NCBI RefSeq assembly: GCF_002160495.1
Contig: NZ_NFKR01000012.1
Location: forward strand, 1 to 64,000
Direction: 5' to 3'
DNA: 64,000 nucleotides
Origin: Erysipelatoclostridium sp. An173
GTDB lineage: Bacteria > Bacillota_I > Bacilli_A > Erysipelotrichales > Coprobacillaceae
A model generated the notes under the pieces. It ran no database searches and was not told where the DNA came from. It saw only the letters and a program-made list of their open reading frames with translations. The first letter of the stretch is position 1. Each line of letters opens with the position of its first letter. This document shows positions 20,870-23,334 of the stretch, piece by piece. Both the position numbers and the translations under genes were made by a program.

Positions 20870-20893
20870 TGTGAATTAAAGGAGATCGTGTCT

Positions 20894-20992
20894 ATGACAC
20901 CAATAACATTATTATCATTTTATATTTTATTAGGATTGGTTATTTTTTTCTTTATATGTGTCGCATATCAAAAAATTAAAAACAAACAGTGA
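20894..20992 (+). CDS. Single-pass membrane microprotein, 32 residues
   Basis: ATG 20894 to TGA 20992 encodes MTPITLLSFYILLGLV followed by IFFFICVAYQ and a basic tail KIKNKQ: one transmembrane helix with positive inside. AAAGGAG at 20878-20884 precedes it and a tight terminator follows 2 bases after the stop, so this is a well-formed gene despite its size. It is 25 bp after xth and may be in its operon. Function unknown; the shape resembles small membrane regulators or type I toxin peptides. Confidence 0.65.
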   Translation: MTPITLLSFYILLGLVIFFFICVAYQKIKNKQ

Positions 20993-21104: not shown

Positions 21105-21126
21105 AGGTTAGTCATTAAACTAACCT
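21105..21126 (-). terminator. Terminator of the CoA-binding protein gene
   Basis: AGGTTAGT and ACTAACCT form an 8-bp stem. On the minus strand it is followed by TTTTATTATA. It overlaps the stop codon of the full-length reading frame (21125-21127), not the early TGA at 21227, as expected if the longer frame is the real gene. Confidence 0.7.
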
Positions 21127-21508
21127 AAAGATTTTCGCTTTCTACTAAAACACAATTTTGATAATATTCTAATTTCAAGTCTTTTATTTCTTGCATCAAA
21201 TTATCATCATATGTTCCTGGCTGTAATCAGATTTTTTCAATATTTAAAGAACTGCATTCTTTAACATAATCACTGCCAAATTTAGGACTAACAACAAATA
21301 CAGCAACATCTACTGGATTTTTAATAGCACTTAGATTAGGAAAAGTGGCTTCACCATCAATTTCTTTATAGATTGGAGAAACACCATAAACAGTTTTTCC
21401 TAATTCTTTTAAACATTTAAAAATTTTATACCCATATTTTTCATGATTAGTGGTAACACCAATTACTGCGAAATTTTGATAATTTTTTAAAACATCTTTT
21501 GCTTCCAT
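21125..21508 (-). pseudogene. CoA-binding domain protein (YccU/YneT-like) with in-frame TGA at a conserved Trp
   Basis: Rossmann-type CoA-binding family, about 130-140 residues. The first 93 residues (NFAVIGVTTNHEKYGYKIF, YGVSPIYKEIDGE, PVDVAVFVVSP) match the family, then TGA occurs at 21227-21229. Reading continues in the same frame for 33 codons, starting LQPGTYDD and ending with TAG at 21125-21127, giving 127 codons. Relatives have Trp at exactly this place (W before LQPG). It is therefore either a fresh TGG-to-TGA nonsense mutation, a sequencing error, or readthrough. RBS AAGGAGAA precedes ATG 21508. Confidence 0.8.
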
Positions 21509-21584
21509 ATTATTTTCTCCTTGTATAATATTACTGTAACGGAGAAATAAGAAAATTACAACAAATATGCTTAATAATAAATAA

Positions 21585-21607
21585 ACTAGCTGTAAAAATA
21601 CAGCTAG
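21585..21607 (-). terminator. Terminator overlapping the end of pepF
   Basis: CTAGCTGTA / TACAGCTAG stem with a 4-base loop. On the minus strand it is followed by TTTATTTATT. The pepF stop codon lies inside the stem. Confidence 0.75.
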
Positions 21608-23334
21608 CCAAGTAATTGTTTATATAGTTTAATATCTTCTTTAAAAGTATCAATAGAACTTTGCCAAAAAGTTTTATCAGTTAAATCGATACCAACACTC
21701 ATACAAATATCTTCTAAGTCCATTTTACCTGTTAACGATAATAGTTTTTCATAAGTTTCGCTAAATTTAGGACCTTGTTTTAAATAAAGGGCATATAAAC
21801 CTTTGGCTAATAATAAACCAAAAGCATATGGAAAATTATAATATGAATAACTAGCATCATAATAATGAGGTTTCCAAGTCCACATATATGGGTGTAAATA
21901 ATTATTATCAAGTCCATCGCCATAAGCATCTTTTTGAGCCTGTAACATTAATTGTTTAATTTCTTCAACGGATAAAGCTCCCGATTTTCTGCTTTCAAAA
22001 AAGTTAGATTCAAATAAATAGCGAGAATAAATATCTACGATTACTTGTGTTGCCCCTGATAATTCATCTTCTAATAAAGCTAGTTTTGTTTTATCATCAG
22101 CATCTTTTAAAGCGGCTTTTGTAACTATTGTTTCGCAAAATGTTGAAGCTGTTTCAGCAATTGGCATTGGATATTCACTATTTAAAATTGTTTCATCATT
22201 TAAACATTCGCCATGAAAACCATGACCTAATTCATGAGCCATAGTAATCACATCAGAGAAGCTATTACCATAATTTAGTAAAAAACGGCTTTCTTTGATG
22301 CTGTGAAGGTTACAACAAAAAGCACCACCAACTTTTCCATTAGCAGGATAAACATCGATCCAATTGTTTTGAATGGCTTTTAAAGCAAAATCTCCTAAGT
22401 GTTTAGAAAAAGTATAGAATTGTTTTACAACAAATTCACAGCCTTTTTCATAAGAATAATTGCTTTTATCTTCAATAACAGGAGCATATAAATCATACCA
22501 AGGCAATCCATTTTCATGGCCTAGATGTTTAGCTTTAGTTTTTAAGTAATCTTTGAAAATATCAAGATTTTCTTTCATAGTTTCTAATAAAACATCTAAA
22601 GTTTTTTTAGACATTCTTGAATTTATTAAAGTTCTCTGTAGTTCATCTTGATAACCATGTAATTTTGTAGTATATAATACTTCGCCTTTAATACCATTTA
22701 AACAAGCAGCAATAGTTTGTTCTTTTTCATGATAAGATTCTATTTCAGCTAAGTATGCTTTTTTTCTAACTTCTTTATCTTTATCATAAGCCATATTTAA
22801 AACTTCAGTTAAAGGATAGGTTTTATTATCAATTGTAACTTTAATACTTGAAACAACTTGATCTTTTAATTTTTCAAAAGCATTGCTACCAGTGTTTTGC
22901 ATGTGAGCTATAATACTTTCGCTATTTTTATCAAGCGTGTGTTTTTGTTTGTTTTGTATTTCGGTTAAAATATATTGATGTTCTTTAATAAGATCACTAG
23001 AAATATTATTTAAGTCAAATGAAGCAATCCATTCTTGAGTGGCAACATCATCTTCTACAAAACTAGCGATTAAGTTATCTAATTGATCACTATATTTTAA
23101 GGCCGATTCATTAGTTGTATCTACCGATAATGTTAAACTAATAAAACAAGATAGTTTTTCAATTAATTGATTTAATTCAATTGAATCAATTAAATAGTTT
23201 TCTAGAGATTTTTCATCGTGATAGTTACGATATTCATTTATTTGCTGGTGTATTTTTTCCAGTTTTTTGAAGTCTGCTAAGAAATTTTCATCATTAAAAG
23301 ATAAATATAAATTATCTAAATTCCATTTATTCAT
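21604..23334 (-). CDS. pepF: Oligoendopeptidase F (M3 family)
   Basis: Cytoplasmic zinc peptidase that degrades short peptides. 576 residues, usual length about 600. The HExxH motif is in MAHELGHGFHGECL near residue 365, with the third ligand Glu in IAETASTFCET about 25 residues later, and the C-terminal YYNFPYAFGLLLAKGLYALY is typical of the family. Monocistronic, on the minus strand, with a hairpin over its stop codon. Confidence 0.95.
   Translation of the reverse strand: MNKWNLDNLYLSFNDENFLADFKKLEKIHQQINEYRNYHDEKSLENYLIDSIELNQLIEKLSCFISLTLSVDTTNESALKYSDQLDNLIASFVEDDVATQEWIASFDLNNISSDLIKEHQYILTEIQNKQKHTLDKNSESIIAHMQNTGSNAFEKLKDQVVSSIKVTIDNKTYPLTEVLNMAYDKDKEVRKKAYLAEIESYHEKEQTIAACLNGIKGEVLYTTKLHGYQDELQRTLINSRMSKKTLDVLLETMKENLDIFKDYLKTKAKHLGHENGLPWYDLYAPVIEDKSNYSYEKGCEFVVKQFYTFSKHLGDFALKAIQNNWIDVYPANGKVGGAFCCNLHSIKESRFLLNYGNSFSDVITMAHELGHGFHGECLNDETILNSEYPMPIAETASTFCETIVTKAALKDADDKTKLALLEDELSGATQVIVDIYSRYLFESNFFESRKSGALSVEEIKQLMLQAQKDAYGDGLDNNYLHPYMWTWKPHYYDASYSYYNFPYAFGLLLAKGLYALYLKQGPKFSETYEKLLSLTGKMDLEDICMSVGIDLTDKTFWQSSIDTFKEDIKLYKQLLG

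Follow-up and report, generated by a model that had tools for sequence, protein, structure and literature searches.

The in-frame TGA examined here lies in a gene for a CoA-binding protein of the CoA_binding_2 family (PF13380), which occupies positions 21125..21508 of the window, the 64,000-nucleotide stretch of Erysipelatoclostridium sp. An173 DNA that was analysed. This gene reads along the minus strand (21508..21125); the first-pass annotation named no strand. From an ATG at 21508, preceded by a Shine-Dalgarno-like AAGGAG at 21517..21522 read directly from the minus-strand sequence, the frame runs for 127 codons if the TGA is read through and then closes with a TAG at 21127-21125. The TGA is codon 94 (21229-21227). 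Termination at this codon leaves an open reading frame of 93 amino acids (21227..21508) that stops inside a predicted strand comprising residues 92-95, and beyond it lie 33 conserved sense codons (21128..21226, beginning LQPGTYDD). An intrinsic terminator on the same strand (21105..21126) overlaps the later TAG, and the upstream oligopeptidase-like gene (21604-23334, minus; identity from reading of the sequence) is closed by a terminator of its own at 21584..21609, so the CoA-binding gene is probably transcribed by itself. Terminator-like sites are well above expectation in this region (three observed, 0.1 expected). On the plus strand, positions 20888-20992 hold a hydrophobic open reading frame of 34 amino acids that closely follows a good ribosome-binding site and may encode a small membrane peptide.

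Read through, the protein scores 89.6 bits against PF13380 and covers profile positions 2-115 of 116, well above the gathering cut-off of 22.8 bits that defines membership of CoA_binding_2, while the first 93 residues alone score 60 bits. The gain in score beyond the TGA bears out the initial description of an intact frame continuing for 33 codons with normal family sequence, and the terminator had likewise been placed correctly, at the later stop. An AlphaFold single-sequence model of the read-through protein (pLDDT 74, pTM 0.71) has a Rossmann-like fold matching 1y81 and 2d59, in which residue 94 sits within strand 92-95 and the part past the TGA forms helix 102-110 and strand 114-117. In fold and sequence the read-through protein thus resembles the known CoA_binding_2 structures (PF13380; 1y81, 2d59, 1iuk) over its whole length, whereas if UGA terminates, the protein made here differs from them in being cut off at a conserved tryptophan. 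On this model a truncated protein would be missing some of its core and would most likely have lost its function.

Comparison with 40 related genomes, its own included, places the TGA precisely at a conserved residue. A homologue is present in 22 of the 40, among them all eight congeners, and in each of the eight codon 94 is TGG in a gene without an internal stop. The tryptophan belongs to a W-[LM]-Q-P motif conserved across the family and in Petroclostridium; almost every family-level orthologue retains this residue, and only three divergent homologues (28-34% identity) have Ile or Val instead. The claim that the TGA falls exactly at a conserved tryptophan of a CoA-binding protein is therefore upheld, and the more general statement that relatives carry Trp at this site needs qualifying only for those three homologues. 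An apparent internal TAA in the homologue of genome G024 proved to be the natural end of that gene. Since every congener has TGG and no internal stop, the TGA is derived and private to this genome. Other strains carrying the gene were sought by an exact-pattern search of IMG/VR and a plasmid search, neither of which gave a match, and by a scan of GTDB genomes, which returned Petroclostridium only. A sense codon in all close relatives and a stop here is the pattern expected of a nonsense-mutated gene; programmed readthrough is recognized by a stop conserved among relatives, and the stop is found in none of the eight congeners. The suggestion that the TGA is a relic of codon history is contradicted by the same distribution, TGG being the codon in every other genome that has tryptophan at this position.

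A TGA at a tryptophan site invites the reading that UGA has been reassigned, wholly or in part, to tryptophan as in Mollicutes, or that it specifies selenocysteine. The first-pass annotation described the lineage as a neighbour of the Mollicutes, and TGA occupies a tryptophan site in two genes of this genome. Reassignment is nevertheless already contradicted by termination itself: in a sample of 1.24 Mb (42%) of the genome, window included, the 768 open reading frames of at least 200 amino acids end in TAA (526), TAG (162) or TGA (80), confirming that TGA stops other genes here. All nine genomes of the genus have an intact RF2 gene (prfB), which in this genome lacks a programmed frameshift TGA close to the start. 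Among the 43 tRNA genes found there is one tRNA-Trp, with anticodon CCA, and a search with tRNA-Trp(CCA) as query gave no second copy; no tRNA-Trp(UCA) occurs among the 43, a list that is incomplete (it has no tRNA-Met, for example), so that this absence is not absolute. With UGA in use as a stop and no tRNA-Trp(UCA) found, a UGA=Trp code (NCBI table 4) was rejected. Selenocysteine was rejected as well, as no match to selA or SelA was detected in this genome and the relatives have Trp, not Cys, at the site. Either form of recoding has next to no probability. The standard code holds in this genome, UGA serves as a stop for other genes in the 1.24 Mb sampled, and the TGA at codon 94 is not recoding.

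The sequence past the TGA shows no decay. The two nearest congeners share identities of 0.79 and 0.76 with the tail and of 0.77 and 0.80 with the head; residues invariant among the congeners are altered at none of 33 positions in the head and none of 16 in the tail, and the changes on the genome's own branch within the tail are two synonymous and no nonsynonymous. The parity of tail and head and the unchanged invariant columns rule out an open frame arising by chance. Together with TGG in all congeners, they support the proposal that a single G-to-A change has been caught early. An undecayed tail would, however, be equally expected if the protein were still made, and to that extent it counts against a nonsense mutation; the 33 codons of the tail are too few to separate a young interruption from a reading frame still translated. 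In-frame stops in bacterial genes tend to be short-lived (Belinky et al. 2021, PMC7918605). Like the stops of that study, the TGA is the one early stop in a gene that is otherwise conserved and whose tail is undecayed; those stops, however, are common to two or more species, and the TGA here belongs to one genome alone.

The CoA-binding gene is not the only interrupted gene. A coding-score scan of the 1.24 Mb followed by Pfam scans, with comparison to congeners for the TGA cases, identified at least seven other genes with in-frame stops, mostly TAA, in otherwise intact frames; several further high-scoring candidates were discarded on reading as natural tandem genes or antisense shadows. In a flavin reductase-like gene (Flavin_Reduct; L118:2283, G000 contig C68, plus), TGA stands in place of the CGT (Arg) of the nearest congener. 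An alpha-L-rhamnosidase (Bac_rhamnosid; L079:151-2853, G000 contig C57, plus) has TAA at a serine and TGA at a tryptophan; the rest of it aligns with the G004 protein over 901 residues with a single gap, and G004 has TGG at the TGA site. Five genes have one in-frame TAA each, within or bordering an intact Pfam domain, as judged from coding score and from Pfam matches that span the stop or reach it: those for a Sde182-like hydrolase (Sde182; L066:968, plus), a transpeptidase-domain protein (Transpeptidase; L108:10680, plus), an ABC-2 permease (ABC2_membrane_5; L114:5677, plus), an Abi_2 protein (Abi_2; L172:7209, plus) and a nucleoside phosphorylase (PNP_UDP_1; L163:3729, minus). In the phosphorylase the domain match begins immediately after the stop. 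From codon usage, TGA is expected to make up 24-26% of random nonsense changes, and Trp to TGA 1.4-5%. TGA accounts for three of the nine stops observed, two of them at Trp, a count that includes the CoA-binding case that prompted the search; with that case ascertained, the excess over 24-26% is not significant. Gene interruption is seen in a closed congener as well: G005 has a methyltransferase gene with a TAA. With several genes affected, a TGA share as expected and a similar case in G005, the interruptions look like ordinary gene decay.

These observations also bear on whether the TGA is real. An error of sequencing or assembly, or a mixture of strains, with TGG as the true codon, would fit a draft assembly of 122 contigs that contains many interrupted genes, and a change from TGG to TGA private to this genome. 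Substitution errors are, on the other hand, rare in polished short-read contigs, the CoA-binding gene has no other defect, and the interruption in G005 comes from a closed genome. We regard such an error as quite improbable.

The most interesting by-product of the analysis is the tRNA that would decode this codon as tryptophan. The only tRNA-Trp(CCA) found (L081:4701-4774, G000 contig C30, minus) has C27·U43 unpaired, four further anticodon-stem pairs by predicted pairing and a 7-nt loop, and so has the 4-bp anticodon stem; it also carries A24 and A9. The gene is identical in eight of the nine genomes of the genus, with no match in G008, and since a 27:43 mismatch (C·U or U·U) is present in most family members examined, the trait is old. 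In E. coli, an unpaired top of the anticodon stem in overexpressed tRNA-Trp(CCA) raises UGA readthrough about 2.5-fold, the unpaired pair of Blastocrithidia is also C·U, and the Hirsh suppressor carries the change G24A (Fakih et al. 2026, PMC13092985). The genus tRNA resembles those described there in its unpaired C27·U43, its CCA anticodon, its standing as the sole tRNA-Trp found and its standard-code setting, but its A24 sets it outside the class called Blastocrithidia-like (a 4-bp stem without A9C or G24A). In about 6.5% of bacterial genomes with the standard code, every tRNA-Trp has a 4-bp stem (PMC13092985); the trait is thus widespread and can coexist with the use of UGA as a stop.

Given this stem and A24 in the only tRNA-Trp(CCA) detected, low-level readthrough is plausible, and by analogy some full-length protein may be made at codon 94. 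A stronger proposal is that the near-cognate tRNA decodes this UGA as Trp part of the time, so that the mutation amounts to a knock-down, tolerated since the wild-type residue is reinserted. The conservation of C27·U43 and A24 in the genus, the precedents cited above, the placement of two of the three TGA interruptions at tryptophan and the lack of any TAG at a Trp site among the confirmed interruptions speak for it. So, at first sight, does an excess of tandem stops, a second in-frame stop occurring within three codons of the end of 38.5% of long TGA-ended reading frames and about 27% of others (p 0.01). The excess vanishes once genes with a nearby ATG are set aside (28% and 25%, p 0.72, for reading frames of at least 120 amino acids); an ATG lies near 75-80% of TGA ends, and an overlapping start such as TGATGA itself brings in an in-frame stop. 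The enrichment was accordingly rejected as a footprint of leaky UGA. Against partial decoding stand also the continued use of UGA as a stop with RF2 present, the expected share of TGA among the interruptions, and the number of standard-code bacteria with only such tRNAs. The rhamnosidase with the second TGA at Trp carries a TAA besides and is probably dead anyway. UGA-U is not known to be a leaky context. With that context, RF2 present and no relative keeping the TGA, efficient readthrough, another of the options first raised, stays unproven, while the single G-to-A change has gained support and the relic has lost it. On balance a tolerated knock-down is unlikely, and the broader idea of a genus with constitutively leaky UGA, in which C27·U43 and A24 make TGG to TGA at a conserved tryptophan only mildly harmful, appears very doubtful.

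Most probably, then, the TGA arose in this genome alone by a recent nonsense mutation that truncates a CoA_binding_2 Rossmann protein at residue 93, although the second TGA at Trp in the rhamnosidase and the potentially leaky tRNA-Trp could mean that UGA is tolerated. A single G:C to A:T transition would have converted TGG to TGA. Under the standard code UGA would terminate through RF2, making a 93-residue fragment the main product and any readthrough minor. Lacking half of one core strand, one helix and the last strand, the fragment would probably be unfolded or degraded; the gene would then be dispensable to this strain, its frame past the TGA still intact only since the change is young.

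As it stands this is most likely an ordinary young nonsense mutation, and a reminder that one TGA at a tryptophan codon does not equal recoding. The structure of the genus tRNA-Trp nonetheless offers a concrete case for asking whether leaky decoding of UGA precedes its reassignment to tryptophan near the Mollicutes. If UGA were indeed leaky throughout the genus, this bacterium, its code still standard, would stand on the verge of a reassignment of the Mollicutes type.
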